Source: Roseomonas sp. (GTDB lineage: Bacteria; Pseudomonadota; Alphaproteobacteria; Acetobacterales; Acetobacteraceae). From it: 64,000 bases of DNA. Under the pieces are notes generated by a model, which saw only the letters and a list, made by a program, of their open reading frames with translations, was not told where the DNA came from and did not search any database. The stretch is taken from the NCBI GenBank assembly GCA_020249435.1, contig JADCFQ010000022.1, forward strand, positions 62,001 to 126,000, in the 5' to 3' direction. This document shows positions 28,978-42,271 of this stretch, piece after piece (positions within the stretch are counted from its first letter, which is position 1; each line of letters begins with the position of its first letter). The position numbers and the translations under genes were made by a program.

Positions 28978-30069
28978 TTACTTCAGGATGATTTCCACGC
29001 GGCGGTTCTGCGGTTCACGCACACCATCCGCCGTCGGCACCAGGTTGTTTTCCTCGCCGAAGCCGCGGGTCACGATTTCATTGCGCGGCACGCCACGGCG
29101 CACCAGCTCAGCGGCCACGGCATTGGCGCGGCGGATCGAAAGCTGCATGTTGTAATCCGCCGGGCCGGAACGGTCCGTGAAGCCATTGACTTCGATGCGG
29201 GTCACACCAGCGCCGCGGGCAGAGGCCGCTTCACCGATGATCTGACGCGCACGATCCGTCAGGTCAGCCTTGCTCCAGTCAAAGAAGACCAGGAAGGTAC
29301 GGGCCGCAGCGACCGGCGCAGCAGCCACCGGCATGGCCGGGGCGGCGTTGAAGGCGTAGCGAAGGCCGACGAGCAGAGAGTGGTTGAAGTTATCCACATC
29401 AGCATTCAGGCGGGTCTGGGACGGCCCAGCCCCGGTGGTGATGTTGCCCGTGCCATTGATATCATGACCGAGCGTGCCCATGAAGCGATACTCGGCCGTG
29501 ACCGCGAGGCCAGGTACGCTGCTGATGGGGACTGCGAAACCGAGAATAGCCTGGTACCCAAAGGCGCCAGTATCGCCATTATACACAGCCTGCTCACCAG
29601 TTGAGCGACGCGCCCCAACATCCTGATAGTCGTGCCAAATGTAGCCAGCACCCACACCGATATAGGGGGTAAGCCCGCCAAGGGCACCACCAAGATTAAA
29701 GTCATAAAGGGCGTTGGCCATCACGCCATAGCTGACCGCTGTGCCCTTACCGCTGGCAAGGCCCTGCACAGAAGCACCGCCAACCCTGGTGTCGCTCACT
29801 TCGTTGGAGCGATAATTGCCTTCAATCTCGGCCCGGAGGCCGTTGCCAAAGCCCCAACCGAGGCTCAATACGCCAACATAGCCAAGCTGAAATTCATTTT
29901 CGATCTTGGTGCCAGCGGCATTGTTCACCGAACCATTCAGCGTTGAATCCTGCAGCATGTTGCCGCCAATGCCAGCGCCGAGGTAGAGCCCACGCACCGT
30001 CTGGGCTTGTGCCAGCACAGGAAGGGCGGCCACCGCCGCAGCGGCCAGGAGGGTTTTTCTAAAGGTCAT
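28978..30069 (-). CDS. OmpA-like outer-membrane protein, copy 1
   Basis: 363 residues: signal peptide (TLLAAAAVAALPVLAQA), a beta-barrel of alternating hydrophobic strands and variable loops (about residues 25-245), an Ala/Pro hinge (APAMPVAAAPVAAA), and a C-terminal OmpA peptidoglycan-binding domain with VNGFTDRSGPADYNMQLSIRRANAV. It should sit in the outer membrane and tether it to peptidoglycan. A second copy lies 277 bp upstream in the same direction; the C-terminal ~130 residues differ at about two positions while the barrels have diverged strongly. GAGGAAAG precedes the ATG. It is followed by its own terminator. Confidence 0.93.
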   Translation of the reverse strand: MTFRKTLLAAAAVAALPVLAQAQTVRGLYLGAGIGGNMLQDSTLNGSVNNAAGTKIENEFQLGYVGVLSLGWGFGNGLRAEIEGNYRSNEVSDTRVGGASVQGLASGKGTAVSYGVMANALYDFNLGGALGGLTPYIGVGAGYIWHDYQDVGARRSTGEQAVYNGDTGAFGYQAILGFAVPISSVPGLAVTAEYRFMGTLGHDINGTGNITTGAGPSQTRLNADVDNFNHSLLVGLRYAFNAAPAMPVAAAPVAAARTFLVFFDWSKADLTDRARQIIGEAASARGAGVTRIEVNGFTDRSGPADYNMQLSIRRANAVAAELVRRGVPRNEIVTRGFGEENNLVPTADGVREPQNRRVEIILK

Positions 30070-30291
30070 CGTCTTTCCTCATCTAAATTTCGCGGATTCA
30101 CCCCAGAGCAACGAATCCGTCAGAGCTCGATAAATGCTCTTTAGCACGTTTCGTCTGCCAGCATAGGATAGACTGGCTGGAGCGAGCCCCGCGTGATGTA
30201 ACCGTCACCCACCGTGGTAAATTTGCCACTTTCTCGGGGTGACCCGCCTCAGATCATTGTAACATCACCAAGAGACAGGAAAGCGACGGAC

Positions 30292-30317
30292 AAAAAAGGG
30301 GCGCCTTGCGGCGCCCC
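30292..30317 (-). terminator. Terminator of OmpA-like copy 2
   Basis: A perfect 8-bp stem GGGGCGCC-TTGC-GGCGCCCC (30298-30305 and 30310-30317) followed on the minus strand by TTTTTTG makes a textbook intrinsic terminator. It is near-identical to the one downstream of copy 1, so the terminator was part of the duplicated unit. It separates the two paralogues into single-gene transcripts. Confidence 0.82.
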
Positions 30318-30346
30318 TGATCTTTCCCGAGCGGGACTTTCCCGAA

Positions 30347-31420
30347 TTACTTCAGGATGATTTCCACGCGGCGGTTCTGCGGTTCACGCACACCATCCGC
30401 CGTCGGCACCAGGTTGTTTTCCTCGCCGAAGCCGCGCGTGACGATTTCGTTGCGCGGCACGCCACGGCGCACCAGCTCAGCCGCCACCGCATTGGCGCGG
30501 CGGATCGAAAGCTGCATGTTGTAGTCGGCCGGGCCGGAACGGTCCGTGAAGCCATTGACTTCGATACGAGTCACACCGGCGCCACGGGAAGACGCGGCTT
30601 CGCCGATGATCTGGCGGGCGCGATCCGTCAGGTCAGCCTTGCTCCAGTCAAAGAAGACCAGGAAGGTGCGGGCAGCGGCCACTGGCGCGGCAGCGACCGG
30701 CATGGCCGGCGCGGCGTTGAAGGTGTAACGCAAGCCGACGAGCAGCGAGTGGTTGAAGTTATCAACCTCAACCTTTAGTTTCTCTGACGTGGTCGAGCCG
30801 CCACCTGTAGTTCTCAGGGTGGTATCTATTTCGGGGCTGGAGGTCGCCATCCAGCGATACTCCGCTGTCAAAGACAAACCAGGGACTGCGCTAATGGGCA
30901 AAGATAGACCAAGAATTGCCTGCCCACCAAACGCGCCTTCCGTTCCGCTAAAGGTTCCCCTGTTGCCAGCCCCCGGAACGCCGACATTGTCATAATCATG
31001 CCAAATATAGCCGGCGCCAACACCGACATAAGGCGTCAACCCACCAAGCATTCCTCCAAGATTTATGTCATAGAGAACGTTGGCCATCGCACCATAACTC
31101 GTAACCGTTCCTGTCGCACCTGGCCCTTTGACATTTCCCCCAAGTTTGTAGTCGGAAACATCATTTGAACGGTAGCTGCCCTCAAGCTCAACACGAAAGC
31201 CATTCCCAAAACCCCAACCAAGGCTAAGGACGCCAACATAACCCCAGGAGAAATCAATCGTGTCCTTGCCATTAAAGCCCTTTGACGTGGCATCGGTTTC
31301 AATCAGCGTGTTCCCACCAAAGCCTGCGCCAAGATAAAGACCGCTCACCGGCTGGGCCTGCGCCAACACCGGAAGCGACACCACCGCCGCAGCGGCCAGA
31401 AGGGTCTTTTTCAAGCTCAT
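30347..31420 (-). CDS. OmpA-like outer-membrane protein, copy 2
   Basis: 357 residues with the same architecture as copy 1: signal peptide (TLLAAAAVVSLPVLAQA), barrel, hinge, and a C-terminal OmpA domain nearly identical to that of copy 1. The barrel loops differ (for example GGNVKGPGATG and PGAGNRGTFSGTEGAFG), as expected for surface-exposed segments. Between about 30760 and 31300 the DNA is noticeably richer in A and T than the C-terminal part, so the barrel half may have a different history. GAGGAAAG precedes the ATG; AT-rich sequence and a 12-bp palindrome (31451-31462) lie upstream. Confidence 0.93.
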   Translation of the reverse strand: MSLKKTLLAAAAVVSLPVLAQAQPVSGLYLGAGFGGNTLIETDATSKGFNGKDTIDFSWGYVGVLSLGWGFGNGFRVELEGSYRSNDVSDYKLGGNVKGPGATGTVTSYGAMANVLYDINLGGMLGGLTPYVGVGAGYIWHDYDNVGVPGAGNRGTFSGTEGAFGGQAILGLSLPISAVPGLSLTAEYRWMATSSPEIDTTLRTTGGGSTTSEKLKVEVDNFNHSLLVGLRYTFNAAPAMPVAAAPVAAARTFLVFFDWSKADLTDRARQIIGEAASSRGAGVTRIEVNGFTDRSGPADYNMQLSIRRANAVAAELVRRGVPRNEIVTRGFGEENNLVPTADGVREPQNRRVEIILK

Positions 31421-31756: not shown

Positions 31757-32797
31757 CTATCCCGTGACCATGCTCAGCGCGATGGCCCGTTCCACACGGC
31801 ACCGCACCTCATCCCCCGGCGCGAATACGAGCGTCCCCGCCGGCGCGACGACAAATACCTGCCCGGCTGGTGTCGCCACTTCATATTCATGCGTCTGGCC
31901 CAAGAATGCCGCGCGCTTGATCTGGCCAGGCAGCCCCTCCCCTTCCGCATGCAGGGAGACCGCTTCCGGCCGGATCGCGAGCAAGGCCGCGCCAGGCGGA
32001 TGGGGGCGGAGCCTGGTTTCAAGCGCGACACCCGCCAGCGCGATATGCCCAGGGCCAAGCACTTCGCCTTGCAGCACATTCGCTTCCCCCATGAAATCGG
32101 CGATGAAGGCATCGGCGGGTTCGTCATAAAGCTCCCGCGGCGTGCCCATTTGCGCGATCCTGCCCGCGCGCATGACGCAAACAAGATCGGAAACCGCAAG
32201 CGCTTCCTGTTGGTCATGCGTGACATAAACTACCGTCAGGCCAAGGCGTTTCTGCAAATCGCGGATATCTTCGCGCACTTGCCGGCGCAGCCTCGCATCC
32301 AGATTGGATAAGGGTTCATCAAACAGCAGCACTTGCGGGCGCAGCACCAAGGCGCGCGCCACCGCGACCCTTTGCTGCTGGCCGCCAGAAAGCTCCGCCG
32401 GCAGGCGCTGCCCCAAGCCTTCCAGCCCCAGGGTTTTCAACATGGCGAGCGCATCCGCCTCAGCCGATGCCTTGCGCGCACCTTGCACCACCAGGCCGTA
32501 CGCCACGTTTTCCAGCACATTCATATGCGGAAACAGCGCATAGGATTGGAACACCATGGCGATGCGCCGTTCCGCCGCGGCCAGGCGCGTGACATCGCGC
32601 CCTTCAATCATGATGCTGCCGGCATTGGGCAATTCCAGGCCAGCAATCAAGCGTAACGTTGTAGTCTTGCCGCAACCCGATGGCCCAAGCAGCGTCACCA
32701 GGGCACCACGCGGGATGCTAAGGCTCACCTCATCCACCGCGCGGACGGTGCCGAAGCTTTTTGTCACCTTATCGAAAACAATGGCATTCGCGCTCAT
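31757..32797 (-). CDS. ABC transporter ATP-binding protein (FbpC/AfuC/PotA type)
   Basis: A 346-residue importer ATPase: Walker A GPSGCGKT at residues 38-45, Q-loop, signature LSGGQQQRVA, Walker B LLFDEPLSN and H-loop VTHDQQEAL, then a TOBE regulatory domain in the last ~110 residues. This architecture belongs to the ferric/putrescine/sugar-phosphate (Fbp, Pot, Afu) group. The ATG at 32797 begins one base after the permease stop, which fixes both the start and the operon. It powers the importer from the cytoplasmic side; the specificity must come from the binding protein. Confidence 0.95.
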   Translation of the reverse strand: MSANAIVFDKVTKSFGTVRAVDEVSLSIPRGALVTLLGPSGCGKTTTLRLIAGLELPNAGSIMIEGRDVTRLAAAERRIAMVFQSYALFPHMNVLENVAYGLVVQGARKASAEADALAMLKTLGLEGLGQRLPAELSGGQQQRVAVARALVLRPQVLLFDEPLSNLDARLRRQVREDIRDLQKRLGLTVVYVTHDQQEALAVSDLVCVMRAGRIAQMGTPRELYDEPADAFIADFMGEANVLQGEVLGPGHIALAGVALETRLRPHPPGAALLAIRPEAVSLHAEGEGLPGQIKRAAFLGQTHEYEVATPAGQVFVVAPAGTLVFAPGDEVRCRVERAIALSMVTG

Positions 32798-32798
32798 G

Positions 32799-34982
32799 TC
32801 AGGCTCCTGCCCTGGTCGGCGTGGGTGGCGGCGCGCCACCGGCGCGGCGCGCAATCTCGGCGCGTCCCACGAGTTTTTCGATACCGATCACTACGGCCAG
32901 CATGATCAGGATCAGCGCGGTGGAATAGGCGATGGCGAGTGCCATTTCACCCGCCTCCACACGGCCCACTATATAGACAGTGGCAAGGTTATGCCGTGCG
33001 GAGACCAGGAAGATCACGGCGGAAACCGCTGTCATGGCATGGACAAAACTGAAGGCGAGTGCGGTGATGATCGCCGGGCGCATCAGGGGCAGGATAACGC
33101 GGCGGAGCGTTTGCAGCGCACTCGCCCCCATGGTGGCGCTGGCTTCGTCAAGGGATCGGTCAATCTGCGCCAGGGCAGCAATACCACCACGCACACCGAC
33201 TGGCAGATTGCGAAACACAAAACAGAGAATGAGGATCAGCGCCGTGCCGGTCAGTTCCACCGGCGGTACGTTGAAGGCCATGATGTAGGAAACGCCCACC
33301 ACCGTGCCCGGAATGGCGAAGGACAGCATGGTCATGAATTCCAGCAGGCGCCGGCCACGAAATTCCTGCCGCGCAATCAGCCACGCAAGCAAGATGCCAA
33401 GCCCGGCCGTGAGCGGCGCCGAAATGGCCGCGACTTCCAGCGTGGTGAGCAGGCTATCCCAGGCGGAACCGCGCAGCGCCATGCCATCCTGCCATTCCAC
33501 CTCAAAGGCGGTGGTCAAATGCCGCCAGGTGAAGCTCATGTCGCCACGGCCAATATCATGCACAAAGCCGCCCACCAGAATGATGCCATAGACAACGGCG
33601 GTGAAGATCATCCAGGGCCAGACAATCGCGGCGGCGGTGAATTTCAGGCCCTTGGGCAAGGGCGCCGGCAGGCCGGAATCGCCCTTGCCGGTGACGGTGG
33701 TATAGCGCCGCTTGCCAAGCCAAAGCGCCTGCAGTGCAAAGGCGCCAAAAGTGAGGAACAACAACAGCAAGGCAAGCGCTGCCGCGCGCCCCGGATCATG
33801 CCGCGCGCCGGCAATGGCGAAAAAGATGCGCGTGGACAGCACATCAAAATCGCCCCCCAGGACCAGCGGATTGCCGAAATCAGCGAGGGATTCAACAAAA
33901 CCGAGCAGAAACGCCGCCGCCAAGGCAGGACGCAACAAGGGCCAGGTTACGGTACGAAATACGGTGAAGCGTCTTGCCCCCATGGTGGCAGAAGCTTCTT
34001 CCAGGCTCGGCGAAATCGCGCGCAGCGCACCATCCAAAAGCAGGAAGGCAATCGGCGCCTGCGCCAGAACCTGCGCCAAAAGCACGCCGGGCAGGCCATA
34101 AATCCAGCGGCTGCGCGGAATGGCGAACCATTCCCACAGCAGCGTCGTCACAATCCCCGTCCTGCCAAAGAGCACAATCAGCGCCATGGCGACAACGAAG
34201 GGCGGCGTGATCAGCGGCAGCAAGGTCATGGCGCGAAACAGCGGCGTCGCGCGCATGCCGCCGCGCACTGCAAGCAGCGCGAAGAACAGGCCAATGGCGG
34301 TGGAGATCGCCGCCGTCAGCGTTGCCAGCAGCAGCGTATTCCACACCACACCGCAACCCTGATGGGTGGAAAGGCAGGCAAGGCTCCAGGCTTCCTGCGC
34401 AGAAAGCCGCGCAACCAAGGCATGGGGCGCGAAGTCCTTGCCCTCATAAACCGCGGCGAGAAGAATGGTGGTGAGCGGCGCAAAGACGAACAGCAACAGC
34501 AGAAAGCCGCTGCCGGTCACAAGAAAGGCAATGAAGGCATCACCGCGAAAACCGCCAAGTGCCGCAAAACCAGCAGCAAGAAACCCTGTCGCGCCAACAA
34601 GCAACAACAAGGCGCCCCAACCAAGAGAGGGCTGCGGCGGTGCCTCAGCAAGCCAGGGGCTGAGCCATTGCCATTCCAGCCCGCGCAAGCCGATGGCTTC
34701 CCCCATCAGGAAAATCCAGAAGGTGATGCCACCGCCGGCCAGCAGCAACAGCGCGGCATGGGCGCGCTTGCCGAGTGCAGCGGCAGCACCCAACAACACA
34801 AGGCAAGGCAGCGGCCAAAGCCACCAGCGCGCACCGGTGCCGAGCAGCATCGGCAAGGGCGCTGCATTGCCGTGCGGCCAGGCGCGGAATTCCTTGAAGC
34901 CGTCTTCCAGACCATGCCAAGGCAATAGCAGTCCCAGCGCCGCACAAAGCAGCGCCAGACGAGCCAGTTTCAACGCGCCCAA
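32799..34982 (-). CDS. ABC transporter permease, two fused permease domains (AfuB/FbpB type)
   Basis: A 727-residue membrane protein holding two MetI-like permease modules in tandem, each with its own EAA loop (EEASATMGARRFTVFRTVTWP and DEASATMGASALQTLRRVILP regions). An extra hydrophobic N-terminal stretch of about 170 residues precedes the first module. Fused double permeases are the rule in the Fbp/Afu iron and sugar-phosphate importers. The start is a TTG at 34982, 27 bases after the binding-protein stop; the only upstream alternatives are also non-ATG. It lies between the binding protein and the ATPase in a single operon. Confidence 0.92.
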   Translation of the reverse strand: MGALKLARLALLCAALGLLLPWHGLEDGFKEFRAWPHGNAAPLPMLLGTGARWWLWPLPCLVLLGAAAALGKRAHAALLLLAGGGITFWIFLMGEAIGLRGLEWQWLSPWLAEAPPQPSLGWGALLLLVGATGFLAAGFAALGGFRGDAFIAFLVTGSGFLLLLFVFAPLTTILLAAVYEGKDFAPHALVARLSAQEAWSLACLSTHQGCGVVWNTLLLATLTAAISTAIGLFFALLAVRGGMRATPLFRAMTLLPLITPPFVVAMALIVLFGRTGIVTTLLWEWFAIPRSRWIYGLPGVLLAQVLAQAPIAFLLLDGALRAISPSLEEASATMGARRFTVFRTVTWPLLRPALAAAFLLGFVESLADFGNPLVLGGDFDVLSTRIFFAIAGARHDPGRAAALALLLLFLTFGAFALQALWLGKRRYTTVTGKGDSGLPAPLPKGLKFTAAAIVWPWMIFTAVVYGIILVGGFVHDIGRGDMSFTWRHLTTAFEVEWQDGMALRGSAWDSLLTTLEVAAISAPLTAGLGILLAWLIARQEFRGRRLLEFMTMLSFAIPGTVVGVSYIMAFNVPPVELTGTALILILCFVFRNLPVGVRGGIAALAQIDRSLDEASATMGASALQTLRRVILPLMRPAIITALAFSFVHAMTAVSAVIFLVSARHNLATVYIVGRVEAGEMALAIAYSTALILIMLAVVIGIEKLVGRAEIARRAGGAPPPTPTRAGA

Positions 34983-35009
34983 GGCAAGCCCCGTGAAGCG
35001 CCTGCTGCT

Positions 35010-36038
35010 TCAGCGCGCCCCGGCACGCACTTCGCGCTGCCAACGGTCAATCAGGCGCGTGCGTTCCTCGGCACTGCCCCAGCGCGCGAAATCATAATCA
35101 ATCAGCGGCACGTTTTCGAAGCGCGGCGCCTGCGGCGGGATCGGCGCATTGCGGTTGGAGGGCAATTGATACGCTTTCGCATCCGCCGCCAGCGCCTGGG
35201 CTTCCGCGGTCAACGCCCAATCAAAGAACCGCCGCGCATTGGCCATATTGCGTGCGCCGCGAATGATGGACATGGACCCGATTTCATAGCCCGTACCCTC
35301 ACAGGGGCCGACCAATTCCACGGGTGCACCCGTCACTTTTTGCGCCACCGCATCATGCAGAAAGGTGATGCCGACCAGCGTCTCGCCCGTCGCTGCCGCA
35401 CGCGCCGGCGCCGCGCCAGAACGCGTATATTGATTGACATTGCGATGCAGCGCACGAAGGAATTGGAAGGCAGGGTCTTCGCCCATGATCTGCACGAGTG
35501 TCGCCAACATGGTATAGGCAGTGCCGGAGGTATTCGGGTCCGCCACCTGCACCTCGCCACGGAATTCTGGCTTCGCCAAATCCGCCCAGCAACGCGGTGT
35601 TGCAATGCGGCGGCGCTGCAATTCGGGCGCATTGAAGGAATACCCCAAAGCACCCGCATAAATGCCAACGGTGCGGAAGTTGGTCTGTTCCGCCTGCCGT
35701 ACCGCCCAGGGCTGCAATTGCTCGAGCATCGGTGAGCGGTATTCAACCGTCAGATTTTCCTGCGCGGCCTGCATATGCGGATCGCCCGTGCCGCCCCACC
35801 AGACATCGCCGCGCGGATTTTGCGCCTCGGCACGGATCTGCGTGAGAGTCTCGCCAGAGCTTCTGCGCGTCATGGCAACGCTGATGCCGGTGGCGCGTTC
35901 AAAGGCGGCCATCATTGGGCGGCACCATTCTTCCTGCACCGAACAATAGACAGAAAGATTGCCCTGCGCCTTTGCCGCCATCGGCAGCAAAGCCGTCATC
36001 GCAAGGCCAAAAGCCGCGCCGACCATTCCCTTTTTCAT
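35010..36038 (-). CDS. ABC transporter substrate-binding protein (AfuA/FbpA-type, COG1840)
   Basis: A 342-residue periplasmic receptor with a Sec signal peptide (LAMTALLPMAAKAQ). The mature protein starts LSVYCSVQEEWCRPMM, with two closely spaced Cys that could form a disulfide, and contains TRRSSGETLTQIRAEAQNPRGDVWWGGTGDPH, the ligand-site loop. Annotators usually call this group 'iron ABC transporter', but AfuA of Actinobacillus was shown to bind hexose phosphates, and the Ser/Thr-rich SSGET loop fits an anion such as phosphate better than ferric iron, which needs Tyr ligands. Encoded 22 bases after an inositol-monophosphatase gene. Ligand inferred, not proven. Confidence 0.9.
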   Translation of the reverse strand: MKKGMVGAAFGLAMTALLPMAAKAQGNLSVYCSVQEEWCRPMMAAFERATGISVAMTRRSSGETLTQIRAEAQNPRGDVWWGGTGDPHMQAAQENLTVEYRSPMLEQLQPWAVRQAEQTNFRTVGIYAGALGYSFNAPELQRRRIATPRCWADLAKPEFRGEVQVADPNTSGTAYTMLATLVQIMGEDPAFQFLRALHRNVNQYTRSGAAPARAAATGETLVGITFLHDAVAQKVTGAPVELVGPCEGTGYEIGSMSIIRGARNMANARRFFDWALTAEAQALAADAKAYQLPSNRNAPIPPQAPRFENVPLIDYDFARWGSAEERTRLIDRWQREVRAGAR

Positions 36039-36060
36039 TTTTTCCTCTCCCTGTTCCCGG

Positions 36061-36843
36061 TCATGGTGTCATTAAACGCATCAAACCTGCCCCCAAAGCA
36101 GGCGCAGCAAAGCAGATGGGATTGCCGCTGCCCAGCCAATCGCCGCTGTCGAAGGCATTTGTCCAGCAGCCGGCTTCGCGCGCGATGGCGAGTGCGCCAC
36201 AGGCATCCCAGGCATTGATGTGCAATTCCATATAGCCATCAAGCCGCCCGATCGCGGTTTCCACGAGCCCGAGCGTACCAGAACCGCCGCAGCGCATGCC
36301 GGCACCGCTTGCCATGACACGCCCGGCAAGTGCGATGTAGTCGCCCACAGGCCGACGGAGCGACCAGCCGATTTCAATCGTTGCACGGCCAAAATCCTGC
36401 GTGGCCGCTGCCCGTATCGGCACGCCATTCAGCGTAGCGCCACAGCCCTGCGCGCCGAGGATCAATTCCTGCGGCGCGTGGCGCGCGATGGCGCCGAGTA
36501 TCGCGCGGCCATCCAACGCAAGACCGATTGAGACACACCAGCGATCCCCACCACGCGTGAAATTGGATGTGCCATCAATCGGATCAATGATCCAAAGCGG
36601 GCCGGAAGCCGGAACCTCACCGCCGCCTTCCTCACCCAATATCGCCTCACCCGGAAAAAGCCGCGCGAGTTCGCCGCGAATGAAATCCTCGGTCGCGCCA
36701 TCGGCTTCGGTCAGGAAATCCTGCGCGCCCTTCAAGCGCGCGGCGCCCTTGCCTTCATCGCGCAGCCGCACAGCAAGGGCGGCGGCATCCCGCGCCATGG
36801 GCGCCAAAAGCGCCAGGCGGCGCTGCAATTCAGCGGGGTTCAT
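36061..36843 (-). CDS. Inositol monophosphatase-family phosphatase
   Basis: A 260-residue Mg-dependent phosphatase of the IMPase superfamily (also 3'-phosphoadenosine or fructose-bisphosphate phosphatases). Metal ligands are in place: Glu71/72 (EEGGGE), Asp87-x2-Asp90-Gly-Thr (DPIDGT) and Trp212-Asp213 (WDACGAL). The ATG at 36843 overlaps the SDR stop by four bases (ATGT/stop), so it is chosen over a longer frame. In the operon with iolG and an AfuABC-like importer, the likely job is to strip phosphate from an imported sugar- or inositol-phosphate. Histidinol phosphatase is another function of some paralogues. Confidence 0.9.
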   Translation of the reverse strand: MNPAELQRRLALLAPMARDAAALAVRLRDEGKGAARLKGAQDFLTEADGATEDFIRGELARLFPGEAILGEEGGGEVPASGPLWIIDPIDGTSNFTRGGDRWCVSIGLALDGRAILGAIARHAPQELILGAQGCGATLNGVPIRAAATQDFGRATIEIGWSLRRPVGDYIALAGRVMASGAGMRCGGSGTLGLVETAIGRLDGYMELHINAWDACGALAIAREAGCWTNAFDSGDWLGSGNPICFAAPALGAGLMRLMTP

Positions 36844-37631
36844 GTATAGGCCCCCACGATATTCTGATCGAAATCCACCAAGGCGCCGGTCATCATCTCT
36901 GCCGCGTCGGACAGCAGATAAATCGCAAGCCCCGCCACATCGGCGGGCCTGATCAATCGCCCGAAAGGTTGCGCGGCTTCGGCCTTGGGCAGCCAATCGG
37001 GCGGATTGCCATCACGCTGCTGAATCACATGTTCGCCGGGCGTATCCGCCCAGCCAAGATTGATGCCATTCACCCGAATGCGCATGGGCCTGAGGCCAAG
37101 GGCGGTATTCTTGGTAAGTGTCGCAAGCGCGCCCTTGGAAGCCGCATAGGCAGTCAGAAAAGGCTGGCCGCCATGGCTCGACATGGTGATGATATTCACA
37201 ATGGCGCCGGGGCGCTTGGCTTCGGCCAGGCCTTGCGCCATTGCCTGCGTCAATTGAAAAGGGGCGCGCGCATTCACCGCAAAAAGCCGATCCCAAAGTG
37301 CGACTGATGTATCCAGAATGCTGCCGCGATCCGTGAGGCCCGCCGCATTGATCAGCCCATCCACCAGGCCAAGCTTCGCTCCCGCATCAGGGATAACGCG
37401 CGCGACGCTTTCGGCATCTGCCAGATCAGCCGCACAAAACTGAGCGCGCACGCCAAGGGCGCAGAGCTTTGCCACCACCGCCTTGCCGCGCGCCTCATGC
37501 CGACCCGTGATGGTAATGGCACCAGCGCCGGCTTCTGCGGCGGCCAGGGCGCAACCTTCGCCAATGCCCTGCGTACCGCCGGTGATCAGGATATGCCGCC
37601 CCACCAGTGAGATTTTCGGCAAAGCGCCCAT
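36840..37631 (-). CDS. SDR-family oxidoreductase in the iol operon
   Basis: A 263-residue SDR with ITGGTQGIGEG near residue 14 and the catalytic Tyr-x3-Lys in YAASKGAL. The start is an ATG at 37631 that shares one base with the iolG stop (TGATG); the preceding GTG at 37634 is also possible. Its end overlaps the IMPase start by four bases. It may oxidise an inositol isomer, for example scyllo-inositol or a keto-inositol, alongside IolG, or the phosphate-free product of the transporter's cargo. The substrate is not deducible from the motifs. Confidence 0.85.
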   Translation of the reverse strand: MGALPKISLVGRHILITGGTQGIGEGCALAAAEAGAGAITITGRHEARGKAVVAKLCALGVRAQFCAADLADAESVARVIPDAGAKLGLVDGLINAAGLTDRGSILDTSVALWDRLFAVNARAPFQLTQAMAQGLAEAKRPGAIVNIITMSSHGGQPFLTAYAASKGALATLTKNTALGLRPMRIRVNGINLGWADTPGEHVIQQRDGNPPDWLPKAEAAQPFGRLIRPADVAGLAIYLLSDAAEMMTGALVDFDQNIVGAYT

Positions 37632-38617
37632 CACAGCCTCACGGGCTTGCCGCTGCTGAGTGAAGCATTGGCGGCCTCTGCCAAAACCAAGGCGCGGCGG
37701 CCATCTTCCGCGCCAACAGGCATCGGGGATTTGTGCAGGACGGCATCAATGAAGGCCGCCAATTCGATACGATAGGCATCGGCATAGCGTTCCAGAAAGA
37801 AATGCAGCGGCTTGTCGGCAGCGACCGCCTGACCATCGGCCAATTCCACTGTGGTAGGCGTGCGATTGCCGGCCAGCAGGCGCCCGGCACTGCCAAAAAC
37901 CTCGACGCGTTGATCATAACCGTAGCTGGCGCGGCGGCAATTATTGATATGCGCCATGCGCCCGCTTGGGGTGCGCAGCAGCACCATCGCGCTATCAATA
38001 TCGCCGGCAGCGCCAATCGCCTGATCCACCAGATTGGCGCCATAGGCGAAGACCTCATGCGGTTCTTCGCCCAGCATCCAGCGCGCCATATCGAAATCAT
38101 GAATGGTCATGTCACGGAACAATCCGCCCGAGACCTTCACATAGGAAATCGGCGGCGGCGCAGGATCGCGGCTGGTAATGATCACCTGTTCCACCGCGCC
38201 AATTGCGCCGGCAGCGATGCGGCGATGCAATTCCGCGAAGGATGGATCAAAACGCCGATTGAAACCAACCAGCATGGGCACGCTGGACTTGGCCACTTCG
38301 GCAAGGCAGGCATCCACCCGCGGCAGCGCAAGATCAATCGGCTTTTCGCAGAATATCGCCTTGCCATGCTGTGCGGCGGCGATCACCAGATCAGCATGGG
38401 TATCGGTGGAAGATGCGATGATCACCGCGCCGACTTCCGGATCGGTCAAGGCGCTCGCAGTATCACTGACACGCGCGCCATGGCGCCCGGCAAGCGCGGC
38501 CGCCGCTTCGGCATTGATATCCACCACATGCTTCAGCCTGGCGCGACCGGATACGGCAAGATTGCCGGCATGAATGGCGCCGATACGTCCGGCGCCGAAT
38601 TGGGCGAAAATCAGCAT
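37631..38617 (-). CDS. iolG: Inositol 2-dehydrogenase-like Gfo/Idh/MocA oxidoreductase
   Basis: A 328-residue NAD-dependent dehydrogenase. The Rossmann motif GAGRIG is at residues 8-13; Glu91-Lys92-Pro93 and the catalytic Asp169-x3-His173 (DMTIHDFD) match myo-inositol 2-dehydrogenase, where Lys, Asp and His form the active triad. It converts inositol to 2-keto-myo-inositol, the substrate for IolE. The ATG at 38617 is fixed by homology (MLIFAQFGAG). It heads a six-gene operon ending with the ABC importer and is divergent from iolD-iolE with a 97-bp shared control region. Confidence 0.88.
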   Translation of the reverse strand: MLIFAQFGAGRIGAIHAGNLAVSGRARLKHVVDINAEAAAALAGRHGARVSDTASALTDPEVGAVIIASSTDTHADLVIAAAQHGKAIFCEKPIDLALPRVDACLAEVAKSSVPMLVGFNRRFDPSFAELHRRIAAGAIGAVEQVIITSRDPAPPPISYVKVSGGLFRDMTIHDFDMARWMLGEEPHEVFAYGANLVDQAIGAAGDIDSAMVLLRTPSGRMAHINNCRRASYGYDQRVEVFGSAGRLLAGNRTPTTVELADGQAVAADKPLHFFLERYADAYRIELAAFIDAVLHKSPMPVGAEDGRRALVLAEAANASLSSGKPVRL

Positions 38618-38644
38618 GCTTGGCCTGGCGTTTCCTGGGTGGTT

Positions 38645-38679
38645 CTTGCACGGTGGTTTGAATGACCGTAACACGCAAG
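38645..38679. promoter_or_regulatory. Candidate operator between iolG and iolD
   Basis: In the 97-bp divergent gap, ACGGT (38650-38654) and ACCGT (38665-38669) form an inverted repeat with a ten-base spacer, inside an outer CTTGC (38645-38649) and GCAAG (38675-38679) pair whose centre is shifted by 2.5 bases. This could be the binding site of a local iol repressor (IolR/RpiR or LacI type). No regulator gene lies within the window. Confidence 0.35.
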
Positions 38680-38714
38680 AAAGGCGGGACAATACCCCCA
38701 GGCGAGGAGATTCC

Positions 38715-40553
38715 ATGGCGAGCCTCACTCTGACCGCGGCCGAGGCCGTGGTCCGCTTCCTGGCAGCGCAGGAAACCGAGATTGATGGCCGGGCGCTGCC
38801 GCTGTTCGGCGGTGTCTGGGCGATTTTCGGCCATGGCAATGTCGCTGGGCTGGGGCCGGCTTTGGAAGCGCAGCGCGGCAAGCTGCCGGTTTTTCGTGCG
38901 CATAATGAACAGGCCATGGCGCTGGCCGCAATTGCCTATGCCAAGACCCATGCGCGGCGGCGCATGATGGCCTGCACCAGCTCCATCGGGCCGGGGGCGA
39001 CAAACATGGTGACGGCAGCCGCGGTTGCGCATGCGAATCGCCTGCCGCTTTTGTTGTTGCCCGGCGATGTCTTTGCCAGCCGGCGCCCTGATCCGGTTTT
39101 GCAGCAGATCGAAAATTTCAGCGATGCGACGCTTTCCGCAAATGATTGCTTCCGCCCCGTATCGCGCTATTTCGATCGCATCACGCGGGCCGAGCAATTG
39201 CTGACCGCTTTGCCCGCTGCCATGCGGGTGCTGACCGATCCCGCCGAATGTGGCCCCGTCACGCTGGCCTTCCCGCAGGATGTGCAGACGGAAGCCATGG
39301 CATGGCCGGCTGCTTTCTTCCGCAAGCGCCTGTGGCGCCCACGTGCTGCGGAACCCGATGCGCGGGAACTCGCCGCTGCCGCCGCGCTGCTTGGGCAGGC
39401 GAAGCGCCCGATCATCATCATCGGTGGCGGCGTGAAATATGCGCGCGCGGAAGCGGCGCTTGAGAAGTTTGTTGCGCGCCACGGCATTCCCTATGCCGAA
39501 ACCCAGGCCGGCAAGGGCAGCCTCGCTTGGGATGCGCCGGGCAATCTGGGCGCTATTGGTGTGACTGGCACAGCGGCGGCCAATGCGCTGGCCGCAAAGG
39601 CTGATGTTGTGCTGGCGATTGGCACGAGATTGCAGGATTTCTCCACCGGCTCTCGTGCGCTGTTTTCGAAGGCGCGCTTGATTGGCCTGAATGTCGCGGG
39701 CTTTGATGCGCATAAGCATGGTGCGCTGCCGCTGGTGGCCGATGCCGCGCATGGGCTTGCCGCGCTTTCAACCGCACTCGGCGCCTGGGCCGCGCCGCAA
39801 GCCTGGCAAGCGAAGGCGCGCAACGCCATCCAGCAATGGCAGCGCGTGGTGGACCGCGTCACCGCCGCGCCCAAAGGCAAAAATACTGCCCTGCCTTCAG
39901 ATGCGCAGGTTGTCGGCGCGGTCAATCGCGCCATGCCGCGCCATGGCATGGTTGTCTGCGCGGCCGGCGGACTGCCCGGTGAGCTGCACAAGCTATGGCG
40001 CGCGACAGATGGCACTGGCTACCATTTGGAATATGGCTATTCCTGCATGGGCTATGAAATCGCGGGCGGGCTTGGTGCCAAGCTTGCGGCGCCAGAACGC
40101 GAGGTCGTGGTGATGGTCGGCGATGGCAGCTATCTGATGATGAATAGCGAAATCGCGAGCTCCATCGCGCTTGGCGCCAAGCTTACAATCATCGTGCTTG
40201 ATAATCGTGGCTTTGGCTGCATTCATCGCCTGCAACGCGGCACGGGCGGCGTGGCCTTCAATAATCTGCTGACCGATGCCGCACCGCGCATTGATTTCGC
40301 AGCCCATGCGGCGGCCTTGGGCGCCGAGGCACGCAAGGTCAGTGATATCGCGACATTGGAAGCCGCCCTGCCCGTTGCCTTCGCCGCCAAGCGCACGCAG
40401 GTAATCGTGATTGAAACAGACCCTGAGACCGGCACGGCCGAAGGTGGCGCCTGGTGGGAAGTGCCGGTCAGCGCCGCGCCAAATTCCCCCGCGCAAAAAG
40501 CCGCACGCAGCGATTATGACGTGAAGCGCCGCAAACAGGCGGAAGGGGGCTGA
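38715..40553 (+). CDS. iolD: 3D-(3,5/4)-trihydroxycyclohexane-1,2-dione hydrolase
   Basis: The 612-residue thiamine-diphosphate enzyme opens the inositol-derived ring to 5-deoxy-glucuronate in the third step of inositol catabolism. The three ThDP-enzyme domains are visible: PYR domain with the catalytic-glutamate region FRAHNEQAMA, the central Rossmann domain, and the PP domain with MVGDGSYLMMNSE as the Mg-ThDP motif. The ATG at 38715 follows GGCGAGGAGATTCC, a good ribosome site; the frame is open upstream into the control region but homologues start here. It is two bases from iolE. Confidence 0.95.
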   Translation: MASLTLTAAEAVVRFLAAQETEIDGRALPLFGGVWAIFGHGNVAGLGPALEAQRGKLPVFRAHNEQAMALAAIAYAKTHARRRMMACTSSIGPGATNMVTAAAVAHANRLPLLLLPGDVFASRRPDPVLQQIENFSDATLSANDCFRPVSRYFDRITRAEQLLTALPAAMRVLTDPAECGPVTLAFPQDVQTEAMAWPAAFFRKRLWRPRAAEPDARELAAAAALLGQAKRPIIIIGGGVKYARAEAALEKFVARHGIPYAETQAGKGSLAWDAPGNLGAIGVTGTAAANALAAKADVVLAIGTRLQDFSTGSRALFSKARLIGLNVAGFDAHKHGALPLVADAAHGLAALSTALGAWAAPQAWQAKARNAIQQWQRVVDRVTAAPKGKNTALPSDAQVVGAVNRAMPRHGMVVCAAGGLPGELHKLWRATDGTGYHLEYGYSCMGYEIAGGLGAKLAAPEREVVVMVGDGSYLMMNSEIASSIALGAKLTIIVLDNRGFGCIHRLQRGTGGVAFNNLLTDAAPRIDFAAHAAALGAEARKVSDIATLEAALPVAFAAKRTQVIVIETDPETGTAEGGAWWEVPVSAAPNSPAQKAARSDYDVKRRKQAEGG

Positions 40554-40555
40554 TC

Positions 40556-41443
40556 ATGCGTATGCGCCTTGGCATCAATCCACTCACCTGGACCAATGAT
40601 GACATGCCGGAATTGGGCGCGGCCACGCCGCTCGAGACCTGCCTCGCTGAAGGCAAGCAGGCCGGCTTTGCGGGGTTTGAGCTTGGCAATAAGTTTCCGC
40701 GCGATGCTGCGGTGCTCAGCCCGATCCTGGCGCGGCATGGGCTTGACCTTGTGTCCGGCTGGTATGGTTCTCGGCTGCTGGAACGCGATGTGGATGCCGA
40801 AATGGCAGCGGCGGAAGCGCATATCAGCCTTTTGGTGGCGATGGGCTGCAAGGTGATGGTGCATGCGGAAGTCGCCCGCGCCATTCATGGCGCAAAGACT
40901 GTTCCTTTGTCACAACGTCCTGTCATGTCCGATGCGGATTGGGCGATTTTCACGCCGCGCATCACGGAATTTGCAAAGCGCCTGAAGGCGCGCGGGCTTT
41001 GGCTTGCCTATCACCACCATATGGGCACGGTGATTGAAACCCAGGCGGAAATTGATCGACTGATGGCACTCACCGGGCCTGAGGTCGGGCTTTTGCTCGA
41101 TACCGGACACCTTACGTTTGCAGGCGGTGATCCCGCGCTGGCGGCGCGCCAGCATGCGGCGCGGATTGTCCATGTGCATTGCAAGGATATTCGCGCGGCA
41201 GTGCTGCAAGACGTGATCGCGCGTGATCTTCCCTTTCTGGCGGCGGTGCTTGAGGGCGTCTTTACCGTGCCCGGCGATGGCAGCGTGGATTACCAAGCGG
41301 TGCTGAAGCCCTTGGCGTCTGCTGGCTACAAAGGTTGGCTGGTGGTGGAAGCTGAACAGGATCCTGCCAAGGCGCATCCCCTCAGCTATGCGCGCATGGG
41401 CCATGACAATCTGGCGCGGTTTGCGCGCGATGCTTTTGGGTGA
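40556..41443 (+). CDS. iolE: Myo-inosose-2 dehydratase
   Basis: A 295-residue TIM-barrel (xylose-isomerase-like) enzyme that dehydrates 2-keto-myo-inositol to the dione that IolD hydrolyses. Metal-binding and active-site segments are recognisable: the N-terminal MRLGINPLTWTNDDMPELG, LAYHHHMGTVIET and LLDTGHLTFAGGDP with HVHCKDIR. Length matches known IolE proteins (about 295-300). The ATG lies two bases after the iolD stop and overlapping ribosome site TGATC suggests coupling. iolB, iolC and iolA are not in this window. Confidence 0.93.
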   Translation: MRMRLGINPLTWTNDDMPELGAATPLETCLAEGKQAGFAGFELGNKFPRDAAVLSPILARHGLDLVSGWYGSRLLERDVDAEMAAAEAHISLLVAMGCKVMVHAEVARAIHGAKTVPLSQRPVMSDADWAIFTPRITEFAKRLKARGLWLAYHHHMGTVIETQAEIDRLMALTGPEVGLLLDTGHLTFAGGDPALAARQHAARIVHVHCKDIRAAVLQDVIARDLPFLAAVLEGVFTVPGDGSVDYQAVLKPLASAGYKGWLVVEAEQDPAKAHPLSYARMGHDNLARFARDAFG

Positions 41444-41446
41444 GGC

Positions 41447-42271
41447 ATGAATTATCGCCACGCCTTTCATGCCGGCAATCATGCGGATTGCCTGAAGCAT
41501 GCGTTACTGCTGTCGCTGCTCGCGGCACTCAAACGCAAGCCGACGCCTTTTGCTGTACTCGATACACATGCCGGCTGCGGCATTTATGATCTGGCCGCAT
41601 CGGAAGCCGCCCGCACCGGTGAAGCGGCGCGTGGCGCCTTGCGGCTTCTGGAAAGCACCAACCCAGCGCTGGCGCCATTTCTTGAAGCTTTGAAACAGTC
41701 AGGCTTTCCGGCCTTCTATCCAGGATCACCGGCGCTGATCCGCGCCGCGCTCCGCCCGCAGGATCGGCTGATGGCGGTGGAGCTACACCCGGAAGATCAC
41801 GCGCGGCTGAAGGCGCATTTCAAGCGCGACACGCAGATTGCCGTGCATAAGCGGGATGCCTGGGAAGCCTTGCGCGCGCTGACGCCTTTTCCTGAAAAGC
41901 GCGGCCTGGTGCTGATTGATCCGCCCTTCGAACAGGAAGGCGATTATGGTCGCATCACGGAAGCCATGGCCATGCTGCGGCATCGTTTTCGTGCTGCCAT
42001 CATCGCCGCCTGGTATCCCATCAAGCATCGCGCGCCGGTGCGGAGCTTTCATCATGCGCTGATGGAAGCGGGCGTGGCGCCATTGCTGGCGGCTGAATTG
42101 TGGCTGCGGGAGCCGACCGATCCACAACGGCTCAATGGCAGCGGTTTGGTGATTGCCAATCCACCGCAGGGCTTTGCCGAAGACGCCGCCGAGATTTTGC
42201 CCGCCTTGCTCGCTGGCCTTGGCGCTGATGAAGCGGGCGCGGGCAGTGCCGTGACCTGGCTCGCGCCATGA
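41447..42271 (+). CDS. rlmJ: 23S rRNA (adenine-2030-N6)-methyltransferase
   Basis: A 274-residue SAM-dependent methyltransferase. The N-terminal MNYRHAFHAGNHADCLKHA is the unmistakable RlmJ (formerly YhiR/ComJ) signature, with the SAM loop LDTHAGCGIYDL and the DPPFEQ motif (DPPY equivalent) that flips out the target adenine. It modifies A2030 of 23S rRNA late in 50S assembly. The three-base gap from iolE means it may be partly read through from the inositol transcript. It overlaps gpsA by four bases (ATGA). Confidence 0.95.
   Translation: MNYRHAFHAGNHADCLKHALLLSLLAALKRKPTPFAVLDTHAGCGIYDLAASEAARTGEAARGALRLLESTNPALAPFLEALKQSGFPAFYPGSPALIRAALRPQDRLMAVELHPEDHARLKAHFKRDTQIAVHKRDAWEALRALTPFPEKRGLVLIDPPFEQEGDYGRITEAMAMLRHRFRAAIIAAWYPIKHRAPVRSFHHALMEAGVAPLLAAELWLREPTDPQRLNGSGLVIANPPQGFAEDAAEILPALLAGLGADEAGAGSAVTWLAP

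Follow-up and report, generated by a model that had tools for sequence, protein, structure and literature searches.

An AfuA-type importer in a Roseomonas inositol gene cluster and its probable role in uptake of an inositol monophosphate

What does an ABC importer carry when its genes are packed together with a phosphatase of the inositol monophosphatase (IMPase) family and with inositol-catabolic (iol) genes? The question is raised by an eight-gene cluster at 31757..41443 of the window, by which we mean the whole 64,000-nt stretch of Roseomonas sp. DNA that was analysed. The original prediction had described six minus-strand genes, separated by overlaps or gaps of 1-27 bases and diverging from iolD-iolE, and the sequence bears this out; all eight genes are open frames in the described order.

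31757..32797, minus strand: importer ATPase, AfuC/FbpC/PotA-like with a TOBE domain (Pfam ABC_tran 126 bits, TOBE_2 45 bits)
32799..34982, minus strand: fused permease, AfuB-like, TTG start (Pfam BPD_transp_1 in two stretches)
35010..36038, minus strand: periplasmic receptor, AfuA family, Ser-60 type (Pfam SBP_bac_6 88 bits, cut-off 24.6; phmmer; pocket residues)
36061..36843, minus strand: IMPase-family phosphatase (Pfam Inositol_P 160.5 bits, cut-off 27)
36840..37634, minus strand: SDR dehydrogenase, PRK06198 subfamily (NCBIfam 333 bits, cut-off 240)
37631..38617, minus strand: IolG, inositol 2-dehydrogenase (NCBIfam TIGR04380 438 bits, cut-off 355)
38618..38714, no strand: putative divergent promoter region between iolG and iolD, 97 b, intergenic by sequence
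38715..40553, plus strand: IolD, trihydroxycyclohexanedione acylhydrolase (NCBIfam TIGR04377 899 bits, cut-off 715)
40556..41443, plus strand: IolE, inosose dehydratase (NCBIfam TIGR04379 408 bits, cut-off 290)

The iolG stop overlaps the GTG start of the SDR gene, the SDR and IMPase genes share an ATGA overlap at 36840-36843, and gaps of 22 and 27 b precede the receptor and permease genes; the permease stop is followed by one base and then the ATPase ATG. The predicted identities also held, with IolG, IolD and IolE above curated cut-offs, a phosphatase of the IMPase family and a receptor whose closest solved relatives include AfuA. Because five other Acetobacteraceae genomes (L036-L040), as well as named genomes, show these eight genes in the same order, the arrangement is more than chance. 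An RlmJ gene (41447-42271) begins three bases past iolE; neither RlmJ nor GpsA was found in a tblastn survey of the five full eight-gene loci, so this part of the neighbourhood looks incidental. Many of 24 aligned iolG-iolD intergenic regions (38618-38714 of the window and 23 related ones) carry CTTG and then a CGTAACAC-like element about 18 b apart, a putative promoter or operator.

The window IMPase aligns with solved inositol-1-monophosphatases at about 1e-29, and GEEGG, DPIDGT and WDACGA, which we take to be its catalytic and metal-binding motifs, lie in matching places; no NCBIfam equivalog cut-off was reached. IMPase-family enzymes act on many substrates. The window genome holds five IMPase-family matches, which would put the probability of such a neighbour arising by chance well under 1%.

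In phmmer searches, the receptor's solved relatives are 8x1a (6e-91), AfuA (4r72-4r75, 4.5e-89) and P5PA (6wce, 2e-77), and the homology to AfuA is full length, 4r72 aligning to query residues 25-338. Its closest named receptors are Roseomonas and Falsiroseomonas records at 90-98% identity, in keeping with the family Acetobacteraceae named in the original prediction, and its N-terminus looks, by eye, like a signal peptide. AfuA binds G6P, F6P and S7P, and does not bind glucose, fructose or inorganic phosphate in the results that PMC4546632 gives for these compounds; the ligand of P5PA is pyridoxal phosphate (PLP; PMC8427247). Hand mapping on the phmmer alignment found 16 of the 19 AfuA contacts named in the available text of PMC4546632 and PMC8427247 to be identical in the window receptor, and among them are all five positions that were probed by mutation in AfuA (S37, T150, H205, D206 and E229). 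The three differing contacts are T11, G36 and I186, replaced by Gln35, Ser60 and Ala209. His205, Asp206 and Glu229, the motif by which AfuA was sought (PMC4546632), correspond to H228, D229 and E252 in the window.

These features were followed in 83 linked receptors, those with an IMPase gene within 600 b or an iol gene within 8 kb; the ring motif is present in 83/83. The equivalents of the phosphate-pocket residues G38, T60, S148, G149, T150 and G185 are likewise kept in all 83, Thr150 corresponding to T173 of the window, and at AfuA Ser37 (window S61) 71 have Ser and 12 Ala. As a group they depart from AfuA at the Gly36 position (Ser in 81/83) and the Ile186 position (Ala in 77/83). The receptor is, by each sequence feature examined, an AfuA-family member; this kinship does not by itself make it a hexose-phosphate transporter. 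A structure prediction from a 12-row alignment was poor (mean pLDDT 65.5) and was set aside. At three loci (L061:8408-11389, L060 and L062), two or three AfuA-like receptor genes stand in tandem, and in one receptor of each the ring-pocket His-Asp-Glu is replaced by Met-Glu-Glu, which suggests a different ligand.

We then asked how regularly the importer keeps company with IMPase and iol genes. Searching named genomes with an alignment of 12 receptors gave 466 relatives, from which the best 80 by similarity to the window (61-98% identity) were kept, a choice that favours shared gene order. The 80 loci span Roseomonas, Falsiroseomonas, Neoroseomonas, Elioraea, Microvirga, Bosea, Methylobacterium and Beijerinckiaceae MAGs, and also take in Rhodoferax, other Burkholderiales and one Rokuibacteriota MAG; gene calls in these GC-rich loci are mechanical and noisy. 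In 64 of these best 80 of 466, the receptor gene has a co-directional IMPase gene as its neighbour, upstream in 63 and downstream in one (L185), at 26-249 b from the matched receptor stretch. Grouping of similar receptors leaves the pattern in place, with an IMPase in 32/43 groups at 90%, 16/20 at 80% and 9/11 at 75% (groups drawn from the 78 loci whose upstream sequence sufficed). Genes for iolB, D, E or G occur in 47 of the 80 loci; we count these four because labels of 'iolC' may include other PfkB kinases, and one locus with 'iolC' alone would make 48. Both kinds of neighbour are present in 43 loci and at least one in 68. The remaining 12 have neither, three of them (L150, L156 and L162) with less than 700 b of upstream sequence and nine with more.

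The full set of importer, IMPase and iolB, C, D, E and G was found in seven loci (L142, L144, L145, L148, L153, L161 and L172), all Hyphomicrobiales or Burkholderiales and so outside the Acetobacteraceae. Within that family, genome G102 (locus L057) has receptor, permease, ATPase and IMPase genes transcribed away from iolG, a protein of the recurrent group c8, iolC, iolD, iolE and iolB, with iolB and iolC above cut-off. This locus is the only one with an IMPase in a 12-row Acetobacteraceae receptor sub-clade, seven of whose 12 loci have iol genes. Ten Microvirga loci have the IMPase and importer and no iol gene within the fetched flanks, so that phosphate, not carbon, could be the goal there. 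A Pho-box-like pattern occurs with at most two mismatches upstream of the IMPase in 11 of 19 loci, where about 2 would be expected; eight of the 11, however, are near-copies from Microvirga that face away from the operon, and matches facing the operon are in L155 and L186 (one mismatch each) and in L176 (two). Among the scanned loci that lack both IMPase and iol genes, neighbours include an amidohydrolase in L165, found also in L161, a permease in L146, an FAD oxidoreductase in L139 and an ArsB-like pump in L189. Ten neighbour proteins, taken from eight loci and analysed with Pfam, revealed no helpful shared partner.

The residue at window position 60 divides the receptors according to this company. 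Counting rows in which His-Asp-Glu is kept, by the link criteria given above and with some contigs entering from both data sets, 81 of 97 Ser-60 rows have a link to IMPase or iol genes. For the class with Gly, as in AfuA, no IMPase lies within 600 b in any of 11 rows, one of which (L060_1) is at a contig end and could hide a neighbour; iol genes are near in two of the 11, and both of those loci also have a Ser-60 copy. On a receptor tree built by a quick method after seven rows had been dropped, 93 Ser-60 rows and L165, which has Gln for the His, form a 94-row clade (SH-aLRT 98), comprising 45 rows with both kinds of neighbour, 21 with IMPase only, 11 with iol only and 17 with neither. Nine label changes for IMPase and 22 for iol on this tree imply repeated gain or loss of the association.

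Whole genomes give the same picture. In 150 Acetobacteraceae genomes the tallies of receptor, iolD and SDR are lower bounds, since for many of the genomes part of the candidates were scored (at most 14, 7 and 17, respectively). The Ser-60 receptor was found in at least 20 genomes and iolD in at least 19 of those 20, the exception being G087, an 84% complete MAG. By comparison, iolD was found in none of six genomes with the Gly-60 type only and in 36 of all 130 genomes without Ser-60 (Fisher p 3e-5 and 7.5e-9, respectively, shared descent being ignored). In five of the 19 genomes (L047, L051, L052, L053 and L059) receptor and iolD lie on different contigs, so the link between them does not require gene adjacency. 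The original prediction had proposed loss of co-inheritance of the importer with iolG/D/E as the result that would count against it; the test has now been run, and the IMPase, iolB/D/E/G and iolD frequencies above leave the prediction standing.

From these data we consider it likely that the cluster encodes a dedicated inositol-monophosphate importer with internal hydrolysis, linked to the initial reactions of inositol breakdown. Its AfuA-type receptor would bind the ester, with the phosphate in its Ser/Gly/Thr pocket and the cyclitol ring held by His228, Asp229, Glu252 and Gln291, by analogy with AfuA. The fused permease and ATPase would carry the inositol monophosphate in, and the IMPase, if the ester is its substrate, would release myo-inositol and phosphate. 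Flux would then presumably run through the textbook reactions, in which IolG converts inositol to 2-keto-inositol, IolE dehydrates the product and IolD opens the ring to give 5-deoxyglucuronate. Anatomy, pocket and co-inheritance agree on this reading, and import of hexose phosphates, of free inositol or of iron would each conflict with at least one result.

Import of hexose phosphates such as G6P and F6P, as by AfuA, with IMPase and iol genes nearby for other reasons, would fit the 16 identical contacts, yet we regard it as unlikely: the linkage to IMPase and iol genes is persistent, and the linked class is unlike AfuA at the Gly36 and Ile186 positions. Moreover, inositol-3-phosphate synthase is required for the known conversion of G6P to inositol, and a search of the window genome for that enzyme (PF07994) gave no match, which leads us to reject such a route in this organism.

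The source of the ester bears on a further alternative. Phytases often leave a monophosphate. The original prediction had suggested phytate as one origin of the substrate; this idea found no support when two phytase families, histidine acid and beta-propeller (BPP), were sought in the window genome and neither was found. More likely, the organism scavenges ester released by others, or by some other enzyme of its own. Phytate is called a main organic phosphorus form in soil (PMC4844319), and Ins(2)P is an intermediate of its breakdown, formed by Mitsuokella (PMC7618129). The same lack of both phytase families makes a phospholipid-derived ester conceivable, so that the importer might take a larger compound (glycerophosphoinositol, another phosphodiester or a bisphosphate) that is processed before the IMPase acts. 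We judge this improbable, given that no phosphodiesterase appeared among 30 neighbour proteins analysed with Pfam, a small part of all neighbours, and that AfuA does not bind fructose-1,6-bisphosphate (PMC4546632 Table 2).

Free inositol as the transported compound, with the IMPase serving another reaction, would account for the linkage to iol genes and for a cluster in which Pfam finds no ribose-type importer. The inositol importer known from Caulobacter, IbpA-IatA-IatP, is presumably ribose-type, that is, of another class of sugar importer than the one encoded here. The phosphate pocket kept in every linked receptor also speaks against free inositol, as does the failure of AfuA to bind unphosphorylated glucose or fructose (PMC4546632), and we hold this alternative to be very unlikely. 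Import of iron or 2-aminoethylphosphonate (2-AEP), as automatic annotation would have it, is barely credible: the best NCBIfam models are indeed PRK11432 'ferric ABC ATP-binding' for the ATPase (367 bits), PhnU2 for the permease (253 bits) and PhnS2 for the receptor (205 bits), but these scores fall far under the cut-offs of 496, 593 and 393, none of the three proteins reaches a ferric (FbpA) or 2-AEP equivalog cut-off among its 25 best models, and PDB chains named as ferric-iron receptors match at about 1e-12 or weaker, apart from 8x1a, which was deposited as an iron(III) receptor, against 4.5e-89 for AfuA.

Uptake of an inositol monophosphate, hydrolysis and oxidation thus remains the best fit to the evidence, the ligand being assigned by analogy, whereas the canonical catabolism assumed to follow did not hold up. 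All three canonical steps present in the cluster, IolG, IolE and IolD, are above cut-off. In the window genome, which is 99.23% complete, IolB (TIGR04378) gave no match at E up to 1e-3 (the control was found in 3 of 14 genomes), the best IolC candidate scored 128.8 bits against a cut-off of 300, and DUF2090 (PF09863), which accompanies IolC in the Caulobacter type and is fused to it in the L057 type as read from an NF047869 match, gave none (control found in 2 of 14 genomes). A 2-dehydro-3-deoxygluconokinase model gives the 128.8-bit kinase a better score, again under cut-off. With the IolB and IolC tests failing, the window cluster is not a canonical iol pathway, an incompleteness that the original prediction overlooked and that weakens the case for growth on inositol.

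Absence of an iolB match extends beyond the window genome. Among the 150 Acetobacteraceae genomes, iolD was found in at least 55, iolB in 22 and both in 20, so that 35 of 55 iolD genomes have no iolB match; iolB is rarer in iolD genomes with the Ser-60 receptor (1/19) than in other iolD genomes (19/36; p 4e-4). An inositol route without the usual isomerase thus seems common in the family. The SDR, whose nearest solved chain is 4nim, was found (E up to 1e-60) in at least 22 of the 150 genomes, 21 of them with iolD, compared with 34 of 128 genomes without the SDR, and it is a predicted inositol-linked dehydrogenase. As a plain substitute for IolB it was rejected, since 9 of the 22 SDR genomes have iolB and the same SDR type also stands beside iolB and iolC in Hyphomicrobiales (L142, L144, L145, L148 and L161).

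A candidate for replacing IolB is a further isomerase-like TIM-barrel protein (AP_endonuc_2), distinct from IolE and encoded near iol genes in nine Acetobacteraceae loci, L085:11793-12716, L054:5827-6744, L046, L056, L079, L081, L086, L090 and L093; its domain was checked in L085 and L054, and the 22 genomes in which iolB was matched include none that carries one of these loci. A second iol cluster with the same SDR type, at L105:7466-18138 of genome G130, also has genes for an aldehyde dehydrogenase, an HpcH/HpaI aldolase, a 2-hydroxyacid dehydrogenase, a second GFO/IDH enzyme and an IolA-like methylmalonate-semialdehyde dehydrogenase, and looks like another downstream route. The window genome gives no support for this set, the best match to its aldolase being 46% with a stop inside.

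More speculatively, and with less confidence than we place in the importer itself, the AfuA-type clade with Ser at Gly36, spread over alpha- and betaproteobacteria, may be the first dedicated family of inositol-monophosphate importers, feeding in Acetobacteraceae a route that diverges from the textbook pathway once IolD has acted, with the SDR and other enzymes in place of IolB and IolC. Among the matches listed in a search of the open-access literature (PMC), there was no report of a bacterial inositol-monophosphate importer. If the assignment is true, a group of receptors for which 'ferric' or '2-AEP' models are the best curated matches would gain a testable function across two proteobacterial classes, and the 35 of 55 Acetobacteraceae genomes with IolD and no IolB would point to an undescribed downstream route.

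Among the closest known systems, AfuABC, the hexose/heptose-phosphate ABC importer of A. pleuropneumoniae and C. rodentium (PMC4546632), has the same receptor family, phosphate pocket, three mutation-tested ring residues and importer parts; the window cluster differs in its IMPase and iol neighbours, in Ser for Gly36, Gln for Thr11 and Ala for Ile186, and in its presumed ligand. P5PA shows the AfuA fold re-tuned to another ring phosphate; in it, Ala replaces both Asp206 and Glu229, which AfuA and the window receptor share (PMC8427247). The Caulobacter crescentus IbpA-IatA-IatP system with its iol genes likewise ties ABC import to inositol breakdown in an alphaproteobacterium, but it imports free myo-inositol and has a full iol set, and the available text of PMC2597717 describes no IMPase step. 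IolCatGC clusters have IolG, IolD and IolE in common with the window cluster; the survey that defined them called, in its available text, for at least three of iolB, C, D and E within 10 kb (PMC9430895), and would have passed over the window cluster, which has D and E only.

Two minor observations concern other genes. Dipeptide-type ABC importer genes (SBP_bac_5 and partners, by Pfam on L054) lie beside the iol loci L054, L073, L075 and L090, whose genomes are without an iolB match. In the window, two neighbouring open frames of 363 and 357 aa at 28978-31420 on the minus strand have nearly identical C-terminal parts and are probably a tandem duplication of a gene for a protein that looks, by eye, outer-membrane-like.
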